The notes under the pieces were generated by a model. That model had not been told where the DNA came from, made no database searches, and worked only from the letters and a program-made list of their open reading frames with translations. A program made the translations under genes and the position numbers. Positions 51,400 through 61,883 of a DNA stretch of 64,000 nt are shown here, piece by piece (position 1 is the stretch's first letter; every line of letters starts with the position of its first letter). Origin of the DNA: Streptomyces sp. SID12488 (GTDB lineage: Bacteria; Actinomycetota; Actinomycetes; Streptomycetales; Streptomycetaceae); NCBI RefSeq assembly GCF_010548275.1, contig NZ_JAAGLT010000003.1, positions 310,001-374,000 of the forward strand, in the 5' to 3' direction.

Positions 51400-51552
51400 G
51401 GTGTCCCCCTCTGACGTCACCTGCTTTGCCTATGAGTGTCCGTCGCGGAAGGCAAGAGCGCGAGAGGGCCAACGATCAGTGGAGCCGGGTCCGTGACGTT
51501 CGAGTGGCTCGCTCGTTCATCCGTATGTCGAGATCATTATCGATCCGGGGGT

Positions 51553-52842
51553 GTGGAAAAGCGTGATGAGAGTCGACCGGCCGGACTGATTCCGGTTGTT
51601 TCCTATGCGCGGACGTCCGAGGACATCCGCCAGCGTGACGGACACGGTGTGCGCCATCAGTTGCTCATCAATGAGCGGACCGCGCACGAACATGGCTGCA
51701 GGGTGGTCGAGGCCTACAGCGACAACGGCCTCAGCGCGTCCAGGGCAGGGATCGTGCGGCCTGAGTTCAACCGTCTGGTCGCCGACCTGGTGCGTGGGCA
51801 CACCGACAGCGGACAACAGATCGAAGGGGTCGTCTGCGTCGCGGACGACCGGCTGTATCGCCGGGCGGAGGATCTTGCACAGTTCTTCGAGGCACTGACC
51901 TGTCGGCCGGGACGCGTTTACGTCGATGCGGAGGGCGTCCGAGATCCGTACTCGCAGGATGGGTTGATGCAGGCCGTGCGCTCGCTGAACGCGGCGATCA
52001 CGGAAACGCGAATCCGGAGCAGGAGGCTGACGGACTGGCACTGGGCGCGCGCCGTCGAGGGGGTGCCGCACAGCGGGCCGCGTCCCTTCGGCTGGCGGGA
52101 GGACAGGATCACTCTTCACCCGGATGAGGCCCAACTCGTCGAGCAGGCGATCACGGACCGCATCGAAGGGAAGGCGATCCGGGCCATCGCGCGGGACTGG
52201 TGTGATCTCGGAGCCACCGGCACCCGTGGCGGTAGACCCAACGCCCAGACGGTCACACAGATCCTCACCGCGCCCAGGGTGTGCGGATACCGGGCGAACA
52301 GGGGTGAGCTGCTGCTGATGCCGGAGACGCGGCAGCCCGTACTGGGCCAGTGGGAACCCATCGTGGCCCCAGATCAGTGGCAAGCAGTATGCGGGACGTT
52401 TTCGCCCGGCAGTCTCTACCTGCACAGGGGCAGTGGTGCTCCGAGACTCACTGGGAAGAGGAAACCTGCCCCCAGTCGCCTCGCCACTGGCTTTCTCCGC
52501 TGTGGGGCGGAGCGCCCCGACGGCACGATGTGCTGCGGAGCGATGTGCGCTCAGAAAGGGAGAAGCAAGCGGAGTCCCTACGTCTATGCCTGCCGTAGCT
52601 GCGGGCGATGTGCCATCAGCGGACCGTTGGCCGACGAGACCCTGGAACACCTGCTGTTTCCCGAAACTCCGGAGCATACGAGGCTGCCCGAGTCTGTGCG
52701 ACAACGCTGGCAGTCCGGCGAGATGAGTCTTGAGGAAAAGCGAGGAGTCATCGCGTCCGTCCTCACCCATTGCATCGTCCGACCTGGGATGAAGGGAAGC
52801 CGTGTGTGGGACTACTCGCGGCTGGAACCCGTCCGACGCTGA
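51553..52842 (+). CDS. Large serine recombinase (resolvase/integrase)
   Basis: 429 residues from GTG 51553. N-terminal resolvase domain: Ser22 nucleophile in VVSYARTSEDI, VEAYSDNGLSASRAGIVRPE, and VADDRLYRRAEDLAQFFEAL. The recombinase domain follows (PHSGPRPFGWREDRITLHPD, AIRDWCDLGATGTRGG-like segment), then a zinc ribbon with a doublet CC and CRSCGRC, and a short tail; the long coiled coil of phage integrases is reduced. GC3 is lower than in neighbours, indicating acquired DNA. It stands alone, with no excisionase or phage genes, next to the DUF255 gene. Confidence 0.87.
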   Translation: MEKRDESRPAGLIPVVSYARTSEDIRQRDGHGVRHQLLINERTAHEHGCRVVEAYSDNGLSASRAGIVRPEFNRLVADLVRGHTDSGQQIEGVVCVADDRLYRRAEDLAQFFEALTCRPGRVYVDAEGVRDPYSQDGLMQAVRSLNAAITETRIRSRRLTDWHWARAVEGVPHSGPRPFGWREDRITLHPDEAQLVEQAITDRIEGKAIRAIARDWCDLGATGTRGGRPNAQTVTQILTAPRVCGYRANRGELLLMPETRQPVLGQWEPIVAPDQWQAVCGTFSPGSLYLHRGSGAPRLTGKRKPAPSRLATGFLRCGAERPDGTMCCGAMCAQKGRSKRSPYVYACRSCGRCAISGPLADETLEHLLFPETPEHTRLPESVRQRWQSGEMSLEEKRGVIASVLTHCIVRPGMKGSRVWDYSRLEPVRR

Positions 52843-52927
52843 GGGGATCGGGTTGCGTCGGTGGGCGTGACCTTATGAGAAGTGGCCGTCGCACGGTTGG
52901 CCGGGCCCGTCCGGCAGGATGGACCCC

Positions 52928-54961
52928 ATGCCGAACCGACTGGCCCATGAGACGTCCCCCTATCTCCTCCAGCACGCCGACAACCCGGTCGACTGGTGGC
53001 CCTGGTCGGCCGAGGCCTTCGCGGAGGCGCGACAGCGGGGTGTTGCCGTACACCTGAGCGTCGGCTATTCCAGCTGCCATTGGTGTCATGTCCTAGCTCG
53101 CGAGAGCTTTGAGGACGAAGCAGTCGCCGCTTTCATGAACGAGCACTTCGTGAACATCAAGGTCGACCGCGAGGAGCGTCCCGACGTCGACGCCGTCTAC
53201 ATGGAGGCCGTCCAGGCGGCGACCGGACAGGGCGGCTGGCCCATGACGGTGTTTCTCACGCCGGACGCCGAGCCCTTCTACTTCGGTACCTACTTCCCGC
53301 CCGAGCCCCGCAGCGGCATGCCCTCCTTCCGGGAGGTGCTGGAGGGGGTCCGGGCCGCCTGGACCGACCGGCGGGACGAGGTCTCCGAGGTCGCAGGGAA
53401 GATCACACGGGACCTCGCCGAGAGGGAGCTCCAGTACGGCGGCACCGAGGCGCCCGGTGAGGAGGAGCAGGCGCGGGCGCTGCTCGGGCTCACCCGGGAG
53501 TACGACGCCCAGCGCGGCGGATTCGGCGGCGCCCCGAAGTTCCCGCCGTCCATGGCCCTGGAGTTCCTGCTGCGGCACAGCGCCCGTACGGGGGCCGAGG
53601 GGGCGCTGCAGATGGCCCAGGACACCTGCGAGCGCATGGCCAGGGGCGGGATCTACGACCAGCTCGGCGGTGGCTTCGCCCGGTACTCCGTCGACCGGGA
53701 GTGGGTCGTGCCCCACTTCGAGAAGATGCTGTACGACAACGCGCTGCTGTGCCGTGTGTACGCCCATCTCTGGCGCGCCACCGGTTCCGAGCTCGCCCGG
53801 CGCGTCGCACTGGAGACCGCCGACTTCATGGTGCGTGAACTCCGCACGAACGAAGGGGGGTTCGCTTCCGCGCTCGATGCCGACAGCGACGACGGGGCAG
53901 GCAAGCACGTCGAAGGTGCCTACTACGTGTGGACGCCGGCCCAGCTCACCGAGGTGCTCGGCGACGAGGACGCGGAGCTTGCCGCGCACTACTTCGGCGT
54001 GACGGCGGACGGCACCTTCGAGGAGGGCGCATCTGTTCTCCAACTTCCGCAGCACGAGGGCGTGTTCGACGCCGAGAAGATCGAGTCCGTCAAGGCGCGA
54101 TTGCTCGACGCCCGTCGCGAGAGGCCCGCTCCCGGGCGGGACGACAAGGTGGTCGCCGCGTGGAACGGGCTCGCCGTCGCCGCGCTCGCCGAGGCCGGCG
54201 CCTACTTCGAGCGGCCGGACCTCGTGGACGCCGCGCTGGCCGGCGCCGATCTCCTCGTACGGGTTCATCTGGACGACCGGGTCCACCTCGCCCGTACCAG
54301 CAAGGACGGTCAAGTCGGAACGAACGCCGGGGTGTTGGAGGACTACGCCGATGTCGCCGAGGGGTTCCTCGCCCTTGCCTCCGTGACGGGGGAAGGGGTG
54401 TGGCTGGAGTTCGCCGGATTCCTGCTCGACCATGTGCTCGTGCGGTTCGTCGACGCGGAGTCGGGTGCCCTGTACGACACCGCCAGTGACGCCGAGCAGC
54501 TCATCCGGCGGCCTCAGGATCCGACCGACAACGCGGTGCCCTCCGGGTGGACGGCCGCCGCGGGGGCGCTGCTCGGGTACGCCGCCCAGACCGGTTCCGA
54601 GCCCCATCGGGCCGCCGCCGAGCGGGCGTTGGGGGTCGTGAAGGCGCTCGGTCCGCGTGTGCCGCGGTTCATCGGGTGGGGGCTCGCTGTCGCCGAGGCG
54701 CTGCTCGACGGGCCCCGGGAGGTTGCCGTCGTCGGGCCGGCGCTCGATGATCCGGCCACAACTGTCCTGCACCGTACGGCACTTCTGTCCACCGCTCCGG
54801 GTGCTGTCGTCGCGGCGGGGACTGCGGACAGTGACGAGTTGCCGTTGCTCGGCGGGCGGATTCTCGTCGGCGGTGAACCGACCGCGTACGTCTGCCGTAA
54901 CTTCACCTGTGACGTTCCGACGACCGATCCGGAGCGCCTGCGCGTCGCGCTGGGCGGCTGA
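52928..54961 (+). CDS. DUF255 thioredoxin-domain protein (YyaL/spermatogenesis-associated 20 family)
   Basis: 677 residues from ATG 52928 after CAGGATGG. It has [20 protein letters not shown], a thioredoxin-fold with redox-like [41 protein letters not shown], then an (alpha/alpha)6 barrel with ALDADSDD and NAVPSGW. Family members are conserved from bacteria to man with no firm activity. Positions about 53036-53145 are markedly lower in GC than the rest and diverge from memory of the usual Streptomyces wording, and a serine recombinase lies just upstream. Confidence 0.93.
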
Positions 54962-55193: not shown

Positions 55194-56459
55194 TTGCTCA
55201 CATCTGTCTTCATCGCTGCCGTTTCGCTGGCCCTGTTCTGGATGGCCGCCTTCACCTTGTGGTGGCAGATGCACGCCTGGCGTACGCCGGAAGTGCTTGC
55301 CTCCACCCGATTCAACAGACCGGACGGCGGTGAGGGACTGTCGTTCTCGCTCCTGCTGCCCGCCCGGCACGAGCAGGCCGTCCTGGACCACACCATCCAG
55401 CGCCTCCTCGAATCCGGTCATACCGACTTCGAGATCATCGTCATCGTCGGGCACGACGACCCCGAGACCGCGGCGGTGGCCGATCGGGCCGCCGAACGCG
55501 ACGCGCGCGTCCGGGTCGTCGTGGACACCCACGAGAGGAAGAACAAGCCGAGGGCCATGAACACGGCGTTGCCGCACTGCCGCGGCGACATCGTCGGGGT
55601 CTTCGACGCGGAGGACCAGGTCCACCCGGAGCTGCTCTCCCACGTCGACCACGCGTTCCGGACCACCGGCGCGGACGTCGTCCAGGGCGGTGTCCAGCTC
55701 ATCAACTTCAACTCCAGCTGGTACAGCCTGCGCAACTGCCTGGAGTACTTCTTCTGGTTCCGGTCGCGGCTCCATCTGCACGCGCAGAAGGGGTTCATCC
55801 CACTCGGCGGCAACACCGTCTTCGTACGGACCGAGGTGCTGCGGGACGCGGCCGGCTGGGACCCCGACTGCCTTGCCGAGGACTGTGATCTGGGCGTACG
55901 GCTGTCCAGCGTCGGCAAGAAGGTCGTCGTCGCCTACGACTCCGACATGGTGACCAGGGAGGAGACCCCGGGCTCGCTGATGTCGCTGCTCAAGCAGCGC
56001 ACCCGCTGGAACCAGGGCTTCCTTCAGGTGTACCGGAAGGGGGACTGGAAACAACTCCCGGGATTCGGGCAGCGGTTGCTTGCCCGCTACACCCTGATGA
56101 CGCCCTATCTCCAGGCGATCTCCGGGGTGGTGATCCCGCTCAACGTGGCTGTCGCGCTCTTCCTCGACGTGCCCGTCGGGGTCGCGTTCATCACGTTCCT
56201 GCCGCTCGTCACCGCCATGGTGACCTTCGTCTTCGAGCTCGTCGGACTGCACGACTTCGGCAAGCAGTACGGGCTCCGGGTCCGTCCCGTCCACTATCTC
56301 AAGCTCGTCGTGGGCGGCCCCTTCTACCAGGTGGTCCTCGCCGGGGCCGCCGTGCGCGCCGTGTGGCGTGAGCAACGCGGCCGCAGCGACTGGGAGTTGA
56401 CCAGTCACGTCGGCGCACACCTCAACTCCGTTGAGTTCCGAGAGGATGTTCCCGCGTGA
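55194..56459 (+). CDS. Processive family 2 glycosyltransferase (CslA-like)
   Basis: 421 residues from TTG 55194 after GGGGGGATC. One N-terminal helix, a GT-A domain with FSLLLPARHEQAVLDHTI, D138-A-E-D141 (FDAEDQVHPE), GGNTVF, acceptor E229-D230 and Q268-RTRW272 (the QxxRW of processive synthases), then four C-terminal helices. Such enzymes build beta-glycans while extruding them through the membrane. Its stop overlaps the GTG of the next gene (56456-56459). Chain identity is not readable. Confidence 0.9.
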   Translation: MLTSVFIAAVSLALFWMAAFTLWWQMHAWRTPEVLASTRFNRPDGGEGLSFSLLLPARHEQAVLDHTIQRLLESGHTDFEIIVIVGHDDPETAAVADRAAERDARVRVVVDTHERKNKPRAMNTALPHCRGDIVGVFDAEDQVHPELLSHVDHAFRTTGADVVQGGVQLINFNSSWYSLRNCLEYFFWFRSRLHLHAQKGFIPLGGNTVFVRTEVLRDAAGWDPDCLAEDCDLGVRLSSVGKKVVVAYDSDMVTREETPGSLMSLLKQRTRWNQGFLQVYRKGDWKQLPGFGQRLLARYTLMTPYLQAISGVVIPLNVAVALFLDVPVGVAFITFLPLVTAMVTFVFELVGLHDFGKQYGLRVRPVHYLKLVVGGPFYQVVLAGAAVRAVWREQRGRSDWELTSHVGAHLNSVEFREDVPA

Positions 56460-58120
56460 CTTCCACCCTCCCCGCGGTGACCACGGTTCCCAAGGTCCCC
56501 GCACAGCGGCAGCCTGCGCCCGAAATTGGTTCCGCGCCTCGGGAAACTCCGTCGCCGAGCCGCTGGGGCCGCCTCCGATCCGCCCGCCCCGACCTTCTGA
56601 CCTGCGGTCTTCTGCTCGTGGTCATCATGGTCGTGCAGGGCTGGAACATCGCCGACTATCCGACCCTGAGCGACGACGAGGGCACCTACCTCGCGCAGGC
56701 GTGGGCCGTGCAGCAGGGCAAGGGCCTCGCCCACTACACGTACTGGTACGACCATCCGCCCCTCGGCTGGATCCAGCTGGCCGCCCTGACCTGGATCCCG
56801 TCACTGTTCAGCCCCGACTCGATGACCGTCGGCTCGATGCGCGTCGCGATGCTGCTGGTCAGCGCGGCCAGCGCGGTCCTCGTCTACGTCCTGGGGCGCC
56901 GTCTGTCACTGCCCCGCTGGGCCGCGGGCCTCGCCATGGCGCTGTTCGGACTCTCGCCGCTGTCGGTCGTGCTCCAGCGGGAGATCTTCCTCGACAACAT
57001 CGCGGTGATGTGGGTGCTGCTCGCCTTCACCCTCGCGGCCTCCCCGAGCCGTCACCTGTGGCACCACTTCGGCGCCGGTCTCGCGGCTGCGGCGGCGGTG
57101 CTCACCAAGGAGACGGTGCTCGTCATCCTGCCCGCCCTGCTGGTCACCATGTGGCGGCACGGCCACCGCGACACCCGCAAGTTCGCGCTCACCGGGGCCA
57201 TCACCGCCTGCGCCCTGATCGGCCTCTCCTACCCCCTGTTCGCCCTGCTCAAGGGCGAGTTGTTCCCGGGCGGCGGCCACGTCTCGCTGTTCGACGGGCT
57301 CACGTACCAGATGACCAGGCCCGGTTCGGGTTTCATCCTCGACAAGGGCTCCGGCTCGTACGGCGTCCTGCAGTCCTGGCTCTACTACGACCGTGTGCTG
57401 CCCCTCGGGGGCCTCGCCGGCGCCCTGCTCCTCATCGCCTCCTGGCGCTGGTCGGTGACCGCCCGTGCACTCGCCGGACCGGCCCTCACCGTCGGCATCC
57501 TCGCCCTGGTCGCGATGCGCCCCAGCGGCTATCTGCCCGCGATGTACGTCATCCAGGCGCTGCCCTTCCTCGCCCTGGTCCTCGCCGGAGGCATCGCGAG
57601 CGTCGCCCACGCGGTACTGCGCCGGCGGCGCGCCGAAGGAGAGAAACGGCGACTCACCTGGGTGCGGTACGCGGTTGCCGCGGTCCTCGTCGCCGCGTCG
57701 GCCGCGTACGTCGTGCCGCGCTGGTACGACGGTGACCGTACCGCCCTCACCGCCGACGCCAACGCCCCGTACCGCGCCGCCTCCAGGTGGCTCGCTACCG
57801 AGGTTGCCGACCCGGCGCACACCCGGGTGCTCGTCGACGACGCGCTCTGGCTCGACCTCGTGCACGCGGGGTACAAGCCCGGGCTCGGCGTCATCTGGTT
57901 CTACAAGGCCGACCTCGACCCGGCCGTGACGAAGACGATGCCCAGGGGCTGGAAGGACCTGGACTACGTCGTCGCCTCTCCGACAGTACGGCGCGACGCG
58001 GTCGATCTGCCCAACGTCAAGGCCGCGATGGACCATTCGACCCCGGTGGCCACCTTCGGCACCGGTGACGACCGGATCGAGATCCGCCATATCGAGGCCA
58101 CGGGAGGCGTCGTCCGATGA
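56456..58120 (+). CDS. GT-C family (ArnT/PMT-like, GT39) glycosyltransferase
   Basis: 554 residues. About ten to eleven helices; the first external loop has LSDDEGTYLAQAWAVQQGKG with D73-D74-E75, the acidic catalytic site of polyprenyl-phosphate-sugar transferases. HPPLGW and LQREIFLDNIAVMW are further family blocks. The soluble C-terminal region (about 440-554) includes TRVLVDDALWLDLVHAGYKP. It would transfer a sugar from a lipid carrier on the outer face. Coupled to both neighbours by 4-base overlaps. Confidence 0.88.
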   Translation: MTSTLPAVTTVPKVPAQRQPAPEIGSAPRETPSPSRWGRLRSARPDLLTCGLLLVVIMVVQGWNIADYPTLSDDEGTYLAQAWAVQQGKGLAHYTYWYDHPPLGWIQLAALTWIPSLFSPDSMTVGSMRVAMLLVSAASAVLVYVLGRRLSLPRWAAGLAMALFGLSPLSVVLQREIFLDNIAVMWVLLAFTLAASPSRHLWHHFGAGLAAAAAVLTKETVLVILPALLVTMWRHGHRDTRKFALTGAITACALIGLSYPLFALLKGELFPGGGHVSLFDGLTYQMTRPGSGFILDKGSGSYGVLQSWLYYDRVLPLGGLAGALLLIASWRWSVTARALAGPALTVGILALVAMRPSGYLPAMYVIQALPFLALVLAGGIASVAHAVLRRRRAEGEKRRLTWVRYAVAAVLVAASAAYVVPRWYDGDRTALTADANAPYRAASRWLATEVADPAHTRVLVDDALWLDLVHAGYKPGLGVIWFYKADLDPAVTKTMPRGWKDLDYVVASPTVRRDAVDLPNVKAAMDHSTPVATFGTGDDRIEIRHIEATGGVVR

Positions 58121-59325
58121 GCAGCTTCGAAAGCACTGTCCCCGGTGAACTGGGCGATCCGGCCGTACGCGCGGCGGAAGTGGCGGAGCCCGGTGCCGTC
58201 ACCATCGTCGTACCGACTTTCAACGAGTCCGCGAACATCGGGGAGTTGCTGCGCCGGATCACCGAGTCGGTGCCGTCGCGGCTGCCCTGCGAGGTCGTCT
58301 TCGTCGACGACTCCACGGACGACACGCCCGCGGTGATCTCCGAGGCCGCGCAGGACTGCCCGTTCCCCGTCACCGTCATCCACCGCGAGGAGGCGGTGGG
58401 CGGGCTCGGTGGCGCGGTCGTCGAGGGCATCAAGGCGGCGACCTCCGACTGGATCGTCGTCATGGACGGCGACTGCCAGCATCCGCCTTCCCTGGTACCT
58501 GAGTTGGTGGCCACCGGTGAGCGGGCCAACGCCGGGCTCGTGGTCGCCTCCCGGTACATCAAGGGCGGCAGCCGGGCCGGGCTCGCGGGCAACTACCGCG
58601 TGGCCGTGTCCCGTTGCGCGACCTGGCTGACCAAATCCCTGTTCCCGCGCAGGCTGCACGGCATCAGCGACCCGATGAGCGGGTTCTTCGCGATCCGGCG
58701 CAGCGCGGTCACCGCCGACATCCTCCAGCCCCTCGGCTACAAGATCCTCCTCGAACTGGCCGTCCGCAGCCGCCCCCGCGAGGTCACCGAGGTCCCCTTC
58801 GTATTCCAGGACCGATACGCCGGCGAGTCCAAGTCCTCGGCCCAGGAGGGCCTGCGATTCCTGCGCCATCTGGTCGGCCTGCGCTCCGCCTCGCCCGCCG
58901 CCCGCATGGTCGGCTTCGGCCTGATCGGCGCCACCGGCTTCCTGCCGAACCTGCTCGGGCTGTACGGGCTCACCGCGACCGGTCTGCACTACGTACCGGC
59001 CGAGATTCTCGCCAACCAACTGGGCGTCGCCTGGAACTTCCTGCTCATCGAGCATCTGCTGTTCCGCGACCGCCGTCGGCACCGCCGCTGGTGGGACCGT
59101 GCCGGCCGGTTCGCGGTGATCGCCAACCTCGACCTCGTCCTGCGGCTGCCGCTCATCGCGCTGTTCGTGGACCGGTTCGGGATGGGCGTGCTGCCCGCCA
59201 CCGCGCTCGCGCTGGTGACGACCTTCGTCCTGCGCTTCGTCGGAACCGAAGCGCTGGTCTATCTGCCGCGTCGGGGTCACCAGGGAGCCGCGTGCGAAAG
59301 CGAAGCAGCGAGGAGAGCCGCGTGA
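58117..59325 (+). CDS. DPM1-like glycosyltransferase fused to GtrA flippase-like domain
   Basis: 402 residues. GT2 domain about residues 28-265: TIVVPTFNESANIGELLRRI, VVFVDDSTDD, VMDGDCQHPP (DxD-like), SDPMSGFFAIRRSA. A GtrA domain with four helices follows (about 270-385: FGLIGATGFLPNLLGLYGLT, NQLGVAWNFLLIEHLLF). Makes a polyprenyl-phosphate sugar and probably flips it, supplying the GT-C enzyme upstream. ATG overlaps the previous stop; its own stop overlaps the next GTG. Confidence 0.92.
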   Translation: MSSFESTVPGELGDPAVRAAEVAEPGAVTIVVPTFNESANIGELLRRITESVPSRLPCEVVFVDDSTDDTPAVISEAAQDCPFPVTVIHREEAVGGLGGAVVEGIKAATSDWIVVMDGDCQHPPSLVPELVATGERANAGLVVASRYIKGGSRAGLAGNYRVAVSRCATWLTKSLFPRRLHGISDPMSGFFAIRRSAVTADILQPLGYKILLELAVRSRPREVTEVPFVFQDRYAGESKSSAQEGLRFLRHLVGLRSASPAARMVGFGLIGATGFLPNLLGLYGLTATGLHYVPAEILANQLGVAWNFLLIEHLLFRDRRRHRRWWDRAGRFAVIANLDLVLRLPLIALFVDRFGMGVLPATALALVTTFVLRFVGTEALVYLPRRGHQGAACESEAARRAA

Positions 59326-61853
59326 GACCGTTCAGCACATTCCGCACAGCAGGAAGAGCAGTAGGAAGAGCTGCGGGAAAACCAGCGGGAAAACCAGCAG
59401 GTAGATCAACTGTCCGAAGAAGAACTGCGTTTGTCGGGGTCGGGGCCCTGACCGCCGGCCTCCTCCTCACCTCGCCCCAGCCCGCGTCCGCCGCCAACCT
59501 CGTCCTCAACCCCGGCTTCGAGACGGTGGGCAGCGGCGACATGCCGTACTGCTGGGAGAAGTCCGGGTGGGGCGACAACGACTTCACCTTCTCCACCGTC
59601 ACCGGCGGCCACTCGGGCTCGAAGGCCATGAAGGTCGAGCTGACCCGGCGGGTGAGTGGCGACCGCAAGGCGCTGATCACCGAGGACACGACCTGCGCGC
59701 CCGTGGTGACCGCGGGCAAGCAGTACGACCTCGGGCTCTGGTACAAGACGACCACCCCCGACGCGGCCATCACTCTGTTCCGGCACGACACGACGCTCGG
59801 CTGGCAGTACTGGACCGACCTCAAAACCCTGGAGATGCAGGGTAGTTGGACCCAGGCCACGGTCCGCACACCGGCGGTCCCGGCCGGCACCGACCGCATC
59901 ACGTGGGGCGTCTCGGTGTACGGCACGGGCTCCGCGACGACCGACGACTACACGATGGAGCAGGTCGTCGACCCGGTCCCGCCCGCCACCTGCACCGGCA
60001 CCGCCGAGGAGTGCGCCAACGGGAAGTGGACGGTGCTGCCCACACAGAACCCGGTCCGCTCCATGCACTCCGTCGTCCTCAACAACGGCAAGGTGTTGCT
60101 GATCGCGGGCTCCGGCAACAGCGAGGAGCAGTTCAACGCGGGCACGTTCACCAGCGCGGTGTACGACCCGGCCAACGGCACCTACAAGGTCATCCCCACG
60201 CCGAAGGACATGTTCTGCTCCGGGCACGTCCAGCTCCAGGACGGGCGTGTGCTGGTGATGAGCGGCAACAAGGCGTACCCGGTCGCGGGCGGGCACGGCT
60301 ACGAGGGCTTCAAGGACTCGTACATCTTCGACCCGGTGACTGAGACGTACAGCAAGACGAACGACCTGAACGACGGTCACTGGTACCCGTCGGCGACCGC
60401 CCTCGGCAACGGTGACGTGATCTCCTTCGGCGGGCTCAAGGAGGATTCGACGGGTTCGGTGACCGCCGAGCTGTGGTCGGACGCGCAGCAGAAGTGGCTG
60501 CCGCTGTGGCAGGTCAACCAGACCTGGTCGTACTGGGGTCTCTACCCGTCGATGATCCTGATGCAGGACGGCCGCCTCTTCTACTCGGGCAGCCATGTCT
60601 TCGGCAACGGCACGCCCGGCACCGGGTCGGCGATCTACGACTACGCGGCCAACACGACGACCGCGATCTCCGGGCTCCAGAACAAGGACCAGCGCGACCA
60701 GTCGGCGAGTGTGCTGCTGCCGCCGGCCCAGGACCAGCGGGTGCTGACGCTGGGCGGTGGCAACATCGAGTCCAATCCGGACGCGGGCCGGCTGACCGAC
60801 GTCATCGACCTCAAGGCGGCCAACCCCGCGTACGTGGCGGGTCCGCCGCTGCCGCAGGGCACGGTCGACCTCGGCAACGGTCCGGTCGCCGAAACCGGCA
60901 GCCAGGGCAAGATGTACGTCTCCGCCGTACTGCTGCCGGACGGCAAGGTGCTGGAGACCGGCGGCGCACTGCACAACCGGGCCAACCCGGTCTTCGAGTC
61001 GTCGATCTACGACCCGGCGGCGAACACCTTCGACCCGGTGGCCGCCGATCCGCAGGCCCGCGGCTACCACTCGTCGTCGTTCCTGCTGCCCGACGGCCGG
61101 GTGATGTCGACCGGTGACAACCCGGGCAACGGCACCTGGAACCACAACGTGTCGATCTACACCCCGCCGTACCTCCTCAAGGGCACGCGTCCGACGATCA
61201 CTTCGGTGATCGACGGTGAGTGGAACTACGGCGACACGCAGCGCATCACGGTCGACCGCCCCATCGTCAAGGCGGAGTTGATCCGCCCGGCCGCGGTCAC
61301 GCACTCCTCGGACCCGAACCAGCGGTTCGTGGACCTGCCCCTGTCGGTCGACGGCAACAACATCGACCTCAACGTGACGAGCAACCCCAACCTGGCCCCG
61401 CCCGGCTGGTACATGCTCTTCGCGGTCGACGCCAACGGCGTTCCCTCGGTGGCGAAGTGGGTCCACCTCCAGGGGCCGGCGGCACTGTCGTCGACGGCGA
61501 TGTCCATGTCGATGCCCGCGGAATCCTCCGACGCGACCCCTTCCGCGCACATCCACTCCTTCGCGGACGGCCTGAAGGGCAAGGTCACCGGCCCCGGCAA
61601 GAAGCGTGCCTCGCAGCAGGTCAGCCCGACCCTCTCGGGCTGTGACCGCCACTACGGCTCGATCAACGTCTGCGTCCCGACGGTGTTCCCGGCGGAGGTC
61701 AAGAAGACGACGGCCGCCCGCTGCGCCTGGCTCAAGGCCAACGACTACGGCCGCCTGAAGATCAACGGCAAGGACGACCCCCTCGGCCTCGATCCGAGCC
61801 GCAACGGGGTGGCCTGCGAGAAACAGGACCTGAGGAAGAGCGCGAGGAAGTGA
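59322..61853 (+). CDS. Secreted galactose oxidase-like copper-radical enzyme (GlxA-like) with excalibur tail
   Basis: 843 residues from GTG 59322 (GAGGAGAGCC upstream). Signal peptide (TAFVGVGALTAGLLLTSPQP, ASA), a carbohydrate-binding-like module (about 60-220: NLVLNPGFETVGSG), a kelch propeller with copper-radical ligands C299 (MFCSGHVQLQDG), Y355 (GHWYPSATAL), Y582-H583 (GYHSSSFLLPDG) and H661 (VTHSSDPNQRF), a DUF1929-like domain, and an excalibur-type tail (LDPSRNGVACEK). All ligands of galactose oxidase are present. In Streptomyces GlxA oxidises a CslA-made glycan at hyphal tips; this is a different locus with extra transferases. Confidence 0.9.
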   Translation: MRPFSTFRTAGRAVGRAAGKPAGKPAGRSTVRRRTAFVGVGALTAGLLLTSPQPASAANLVLNPGFETVGSGDMPYCWEKSGWGDNDFTFSTVTGGHSGSKAMKVELTRRVSGDRKALITEDTTCAPVVTAGKQYDLGLWYKTTTPDAAITLFRHDTTLGWQYWTDLKTLEMQGSWTQATVRTPAVPAGTDRITWGVSVYGTGSATTDDYTMEQVVDPVPPATCTGTAEECANGKWTVLPTQNPVRSMHSVVLNNGKVLLIAGSGNSEEQFNAGTFTSAVYDPANGTYKVIPTPKDMFCSGHVQLQDGRVLVMSGNKAYPVAGGHGYEGFKDSYIFDPVTETYSKTNDLNDGHWYPSATALGNGDVISFGGLKEDSTGSVTAELWSDAQQKWLPLWQVNQTWSYWGLYPSMILMQDGRLFYSGSHVFGNGTPGTGSAIYDYAANTTTAISGLQNKDQRDQSASVLLPPAQDQRVLTLGGGNIESNPDAGRLTDVIDLKAANPAYVAGPPLPQGTVDLGNGPVAETGSQGKMYVSAVLLPDGKVLETGGALHNRANPVFESSIYDPAANTFDPVAADPQARGYHSSSFLLPDGRVMSTGDNPGNGTWNHNVSIYTPPYLLKGTRPTITSVIDGEWNYGDTQRITVDRPIVKAELIRPAAVTHSSDPNQRFVDLPLSVDGNNIDLNVTSNPNLAPPGWYMLFAVDANGVPSVAKWVHLQGPAALSSTAMSMSMPAESSDATPSAHIHSFADGLKGKVTGPGKKRASQQVSPTLSGCDRHYGSINVCVPTVFPAEVKKTTAARCAWLKANDYGRLKINGKDDPLGLDPSRNGVACEKQDLRKSARK

Positions 61854-61883
61854 GGTAGCGGTAAGGGGACCGGTCCCCAACTA

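Follow-up and report, generated by a model that had tools for sequence, protein, structure and literature searches.

The window analysed here is a 64,000-nucleotide stretch of the genome of Streptomyces sp. SID12488 (contig NZ_JAAGLT010000003.1, positions 310,001 to 374,000 of the forward strand). Between positions 55194 and 61853 it carries four open reading frames (ORFs), arranged head to tail, which encode a GT2 glycosyltransferase, a GT-C glycosyltransferase, a DPM1-GtrA fusion protein and a copper-radical oxidase. Relatives mostly keep or lack these genes together, and their linkage as a unit is well supported. The features of this candidate surface polysaccharide operon are the following (positions are those of the window).

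55194..56459, + strand: GT2 glycosyltransferase with a cellulose-synthase-like fold; 421 amino acids, TTG start; motifs DAED, AEDCDLG and QRTRW, and a conserved C-terminal WELTSHVGAH
56456..56459, + strand: stop/start overlap GTGA between GT2 and GT-C
56456..58120, + strand: GT-C glycosyltransferase of the PMT superfamily; 554 amino acids, GTG start; SDDEGTY motif
58117..58120, + strand: stop/start overlap ATGA between GT-C and DPM1-GtrA
58117..59325, + strand: DPM1-GtrA fusion; 402 amino acids, ATG start; DGDCQHPP motif
about 58201-58710, + strand: DPM-type synthase domain of the fusion
about 58915-59259, + strand: GtrA membrane domain of the fusion
59322..59325, + strand: stop/start overlap GTGA between DPM1-GtrA and the oxidase
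59322..61853, + strand: copper-radical oxidase, read as secreted; 843 amino acids, GTG start
about 59322-59490, + strand: signal-like region of the oxidase, read by eye
about 59493-59966, + strand: beta-rich N-terminal module of the oxidase, family unassigned
about 59997-61469, + strand: kelch propeller and E-set catalytic core of the oxidase
60216..61304, + strand: copper-site residues C299 (60216), W354 (60381), Y355 (60384), Y582 (61065), H583 (61068) and H661 (61302)
about 61629-61850, + strand: Cys-containing C-terminal domain of the oxidase

All four ORFs are open, and their ends and the three 4-base overlaps (GTGA, ATGA and GTGA) are as the original prediction had them. The QRTRW motif of GT2, the DDE motif of GT-C and the galactose-oxidase ligands of the oxidase, which it had also listed, are each present in the translated ORFs. 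Among the named loci which have all four genes (78 titled Streptomyces and one titled 'Actinobacteria bacterium'), the 4-base overlap is kept at 78 of 79 GT2/GT-C junctions, at 79 of 79 GT-C/DPM junctions and at 67 of 79 DPM/oxidase junctions; locus L103, whose contig ends after 4574 bases, was left out of these counts. Kept at nearly all of the first two junctions and at most of the third, the overlaps are not due to chance; the four genes would be transcribed together.

Predicted functions of the four products

GT2 belongs to Pfam family PF13641 (139 bits), and its structure model aligns with BcsA over residues 1-421, membrane helices included. With enzymes of the BcsA/HAS type it shares the synthase fold, the membrane helices and the QxxRW motif. 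A motif resembling WExTxHxGAH is found in 128 of 131 loci; its likeness to the FxVTxK gating loop was seen by eye only and lies outside the profile alignment. GT2 is predicted to be a membrane-embedded polymer synthase with a cellulose-synthase fold.

GT-C matches the PMT family (PF02366) with 37.5 bits, for a cut-off of 22.7, and has nine hydrophobic segments in a simple scan. Its acidic DE-G-T-Y motif, conserved in 128 of 132 loci, would be located in the first outer loop. A search of the PDB gave no match up to an E-value of 1. From its sequence, the enzyme is predicted to act outside the cell as a transferase for a sugar carried on polyprenyl phosphate.

The DPM1-GtrA fusion matches PF00535 and PF04138 (GtrA_DPMS_TM), both above cut-off, and aligns over nearly its full length with the dolichol-phosphate-mannose synthase of Pyrococcus (5mlz, 2.7e-49). 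Two parts of a three-component glycosylation unit, the polyprenyl-phosphate-sugar synthase and the GtrA flippase, are therefore recognised in it, by homology only. The genome contains a second DPM1-GtrA gene (C114:70473-71681; L062 9465-11051), which is 84% identical to the window copy and has no GT2 and GT-C pair nearby.

The oxidase matches PF09118 (GO-like_E_set, 90.7 bits) and Kelch/Glyoxal_oxid_N, and its best structural alignment is with GlxA (4unm, 7.3e-86), followed by galactose oxidase. A linker modelled with low confidence joins the catalytic core to the C-terminal domain. The protein is probably secreted, judging by its signal-like N-terminus; a simple hydropathy scan gave no segment at threshold. 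It has the Tyr-Cys cofactor and copper ligand set of family AA5 (C, W, Y, Y, H, H), as read from the sequence. Across 110 oxidase loci (L143, which is too short, was excluded), the C, W and Y positions are kept in 109 rows, the remaining one being a gap, and the Y, H and H positions in all 110. Searches of the PDB and Pfam with the N-terminal module gave no useful match, and a Pfam search with the C-terminal domain gave none. The latter domain, fused in the Streptomyces oxidase, is encoded by a separate gene in locus L220 (5607-6074), between the oxidase and SCO1.

Conservation and variation of the gene set

Among 61 genomes (that of SID12488 and 60 relatives), 23 have a GT2 match at E 1e-60 or better; exactly these 23 also have GT-C at E 1e-20 or better, and 20 of them a long oxidase orthologue, which in G028 is only partial, at the edge of a contig. 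Of the 37 genomes of the genus, 19 carry all of GT2, GT-C and the oxidase at these thresholds, and the other 18 carry none of the three; most of these 18 still show GlxA-type matches. In 17 of the 20 genomes with the oxidase, the cluster includes a DPM1-GtrA homologue, which is fragmented in G018 and G028.

A survey of 394 genomes of the class covered GT-C and the oxidase. GT-C was found in 42 genomes and the window-type oxidase in 33 (at least 389 bits, the next rows having at most 339), and GT-C is present in 33 of these 33. The class surveys scored two to four candidates per genome, so that misses are possible. Widened searches around G336, G086, G365 and G041 gave no genome beyond those already known to have GT-C. 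The co-occurrence in the 61 and the 394 genomes rules out that the set is scattered singly. The joint pathway which had been proposed for these genes is borne out in this respect, the GT2, GT-C and oxidase homologues not being scattered and the copper ligands being intact in every scorable locus. A second oxidase paralogue, scoring about 300-340 bits, is also present in Frankiaceae, including the genomes G514, G645 and G661, which show no GT-C match.

The order GT2, GT-C, DPM1-GtrA, oxidase is found in 79 of 80 named loci, the eightieth being a 4.6-kb contig; these 80, of which 79 are titled Streptomyces, are the best of at least 556 relatives. S. viridochromogenes DSM 40736 and S. coeruleorubidus ATCC 13740 are among the strains that carry the operon. 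The gene set survives REARRANGEMENT: in L052 and L053 it forms two divergent pairs, with 49-69% identity, and in L050 and L051 it is not flanked by the DUF255 and TetR genes that usually adjoin it. Seven oxidase-bearing loci from one other family have the order DPM-GtrA, oxidase, C-terminal-domain gene, SCO1/SenC, GT2, GT-C. The co-occurrence thus extends across genera, in different gene orders. We read the family as Frankiaceae: the named proteins closest to the L220 oxidase come from Frankia torreyi and F. canadensis (82%), and those of Parafrankia and Protofrankia rank lower. SCO1 was verified by Pfam in L220 and L054. Its presence in the Frankiaceae cluster is a useful clue, since GlxA maturation in S. 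lividans depends on Sco (PMC4736821). In three further Frankiaceae loci (L207, L208 and L209), no oxidase was found within the stretch read; the gene run of L207 reaches the contig edge.

A survey of 133 loci (132 and the window) with hidden Markov models (HMMs) found the oxidase in 111, a GH8 hydrolase in nine and both in none. The loci are not a random sample: L037-L055 were collected by the oxidase, L068-L147, L160-L168 and L206-L225 by GT-C, and L059-L061 and L064 by GT2/GT-C; L040 and L140 are an identical sequence from two collections. Some oxidases, and five of the nine GH8 proteins found, had themselves served as model seeds; L220 was the sole source of the SCO1 model. All nine GH8 loci, which are from other actinobacteria, contain the GT2 and GT-C pair, and Pfam confirmed GH8 in six of them. 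DPM and GtrA are encoded separately in five of the nine; a single ORF of L166 matches both, and in L165, L216 and L217 neither was found within the stretch read.

Other loci lack one or several of the partners. DPM-GtrA was not found in five of 110 oxidase-bearing loci (L048, L049, L050, L223 and L224), and a sixth, L055, ends at a contig edge. GtrA is fused to GT2 in L160 and L162, and the GT2 and GT-C pair stands alone in L164 and L218. L059 and L060 (from a family of the same taxonomic order; a Catenulispora-like affiliation is a guess) have the pair and no oxidase in the cluster. Because there are loci with GH8, without DPM-GtrA or with GT2 and GT-C alone, we distinguish a core from its accessories: GT2 and GT-C are the core, DPM and GtrA usually supply it, and either the oxidase or GH8 would act as an exchangeable finishing enzyme. 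The four-gene unit of the original prediction therefore holds for its GT2 and GT-C core; DPM-GtrA can be lost, and the oxidase is lineage-specific, its place being taken elsewhere by GH8 or other secreted proteins.

Several large secreted-looking proteins adjoin the core. That of L059 (3646-7779, minus strand; 1377 amino acids) is divergent from GT2 and GT-C and has a propeller-like N-terminus, by eye, with Ig-like and legume-lectin-like domains; L060 has one of similar size. The protein of L163 (12183-15323) has Ig-like repeats, and those of L162 (1629-4796) and L166 (2151-5243) have GSDH domains, which resemble sugar dehydrogenases. L166 contains both GH8 and the large protein; the latter was considered as a window-type oxidase and rejected, since Pfam and the PDB give GSDH and cell-wall-binding domains and no galactose-oxidase domain.

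The operon of the window is flanked by a DUF255 gene upstream (52919-54961) and by a TetR/MFS pair downstream, on the opposite strand. A serine recombinase gene (Resolvase and Recombinase domains, 51436-52842) lies between the gene of a tetratricopeptide repeat (TPR) regulator and the DUF255 gene. Only six of the 80 named loci have a homologue, so that the recombinase gene is probably a recent insertion. Long antisense ORFs run across the operon (e.g., 59406-61880, minus strand) and are taken for composition artefacts because the G+C content is about 69%.

A proposed pathway and its alternatives

On balance, we read the four genes as a co-inherited operon which would make one surface polysaccharide, branched outside the cell and then oxidised; we hold this with moderate confidence. 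GT2 would polymerise the backbone processively and extrude it. The DPM1-GtrA fusion would probably make and flip a polyprenyl-phosphate sugar, likely mannose, which GT-C would add to the emerging chain outside the cell. The probably secreted copper-radical oxidase would then convert primary alcohols of the chain to aldehydes. In this reading the operon merges two routes, a synthase-dependent pathway for polysaccharides and three-component glycosylation outside the cytoplasm, and adds an exchangeable finishing enzyme.

Several points weigh against this scheme. The top structural match of GT2 is PcManGT, so that GT2 may be non-processive, and a simple hydropathy scan finds just two membrane segments in this protein. 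The structure model of the oxidase is of moderate confidence, with a mean predicted local distance difference test score (pLDDT) of 70 and values below 50 in the linker and at the ends. GT-C occurs without the oxidase in nine of the 42 class genomes which have it, the loci surveyed are mostly from related Streptomyces, and the polymer, sugar and oxidation steps are all predictions from sequence.

GT2 might instead be no polymerase: it would form a short sugar, lipid-linked or glycolipid, within the cell, a second lipid-linked sugar would come from DPM1-GtrA, and GT-C would join the two on the outer side. The product would be a glycolipid or a wall glycan of fixed size, in oxidised form. This is rather unlikely, considering the alignment of the GT2 model with BcsA over its whole length, membrane helices included, and the presence of GH8 beside GT2 and GT-C in nine loci without oxidase. 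GH8 is a family of polymer hydrolases.

It is improbable that the operon is another cslA-glxA cellulose copy, in which the oxidase would be the structural partner of the synthase and GT-C and DPM unrelated neighbours. CslA and GlxA, with CslZ and LpmP, form the cellulose-like tip glycan system of Streptomyces (PMC11022532, PMC9040799, PMC4736821). The activity of CslA needs GlxA as a partner (PMC11022532), GlxA is the solved structure nearest to the window oxidase, and profiles of GT2 and CslA give a remote hhalign match (96%, E 3.6e-9, 260 columns), all of which would fit such a copy. The two systems also have in common that a synthase and a galactose-oxidase-like copper-radical enzyme are encoded together, and that Sco, linked to GlxA maturation in one, has its counterpart in the SCO1 gene of the window-type clusters of Frankiaceae and L054.

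On the other side, the genome encodes two further oxidases, each with a CslA-type GT2 directly upstream: one on C95 (L004), with a gene for a lytic polysaccharide monooxygenase (LPMO) about 3.5 kb away, and one on C161 (L005 5791-9510). The original prediction had left open whether a second cslA-glxA locus exists; as two such pairs lie elsewhere in the same genome, a sole cslA-like locus is ruled out and the operon is not simply the CslA-GlxA system. The two oxidases score 1125 and 1042 bits with the GlxA equivalog model NF052501 (cut-off 800), compared to 399 for the window oxidase. In a tree of 31 oxidases, the 17 of the window type form one clade (100/99), apart from ten GlxA-like and four more distant ones. 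The window oxidase lacks the domain-2 insertion of GlxA, which follows the first propeller strands (about 115 alignment columns, present only in the two GlxA rows), whereas it has an extra N-terminal beta-rich module and the C-terminal Cys-containing domain.

The synthases differ as well. GT2 is 25% identical over 143 amino acids and 23% identical over 279 to the CslA proteins of the same genome, and scores 33 bits with the CelA model, compared to 85 and 87 for these two proteins. The window oxidase thus has no CslA-type partner beyond the remote likeness of GT2. Unlike the cslA-glxA loci, the operon includes DPM1-GtrA and GT-C, and GT-C accompanies every window-type oxidase of the class survey. 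This evidence supports the view that the operon would encode a pathway distinct from cslA-glxA.

It is very improbable that GT-C is a protein O-glycosyltransferase decorating the oxidase (or, elsewhere, the large secreted-looking neighbours) with a sugar which GT2 extends: GT-C does belong to the PMT clan (PF02366), and such proteins stand beside GT2 and GT-C in several lineages (L059, L162, L163 and L166), but the membrane synthase fold of GT2 would be superfluous for an extender of protein glycans.

Relation to known systems and significance

Each part of the operon is of a known kind. Three-component systems of the GtrA-GtrB-GtrC type carry out the extracytoplasmic glycosylation of teichoic acids and O-antigens (PMC8035078, PMC11127046) and likewise consist of a polyprenyl-phosphate-sugar synthase, a GtrA flippase and a GT-C transferase. 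In the window, by contrast, synthase and flippase are one protein, which is operonic with a GT2 of the polymer-synthase fold and is followed by an oxidase. A DPM1 domain and a GtrA-type membrane domain are also joined in the Pyrococcus enzyme 5mlz, but the window fusion is bacterial and lies in an operon with GT2, GT-C and the oxidase.

GtrA has been linked to the formation or modification of exopolysaccharides in Lactobacillus johnsonii (GtrAB, PMC7117936) and in Actinoplanes missouriensis (gsf, PMC13390465). The excerpts on the L. johnsonii system name no oxidase; the main text of the gsf paper does not contain the term 'galactose oxidase', and the proposed outer transferase is stated not to be a GT-C enzyme.

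For the CslA-GlxA system, it is reported that GlxA maturation in S. lividans requires Sco, that a cslA-glxA-cslZ cluster adjoins a sco homologue in Frankia, and that cslA-glxA is present twice in some streptomycetes (PMC4736821). This Frankia cluster may be the Frankiaceae locus described above, seen in part. Homologous clusters are compared in Fig. 1 of PMC9040799, and parts of the present set may be among them. Among the papers listed by searches limited to open-licence publications, none was recognised as describing the four-gene combination; the combination is real and conserved, and was not found described.

The natural substrate of the bacterial galactose-oxidase-like enzymes, GlxA included, is unsettled according to the discussion of PMC11022532. 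By tying such an oxidase to a synthase and a branch-adding unit, this widespread operon predicts a specific glycan, decorated and oxidised. It would also bring together, within a single gene unit, two assembly routes of known kind: synthase-dependent export and glycosylation by a three-component system. We suggest, tentatively and with less confidence than for the pathway proposed above, that it represents an actinobacterial hybrid line, in which a backbone made by a synthase would be mannosylated outside the cell as it emerges and then receive a swappable finish: either trimming by GH8 or copper-radical oxidation, which would give an aldehyde-bearing, cross-linkable wall coat. The mutual exclusivity of GH8 and the oxidase suggests that hydrolytic and oxidative finishing are naturally swapped.

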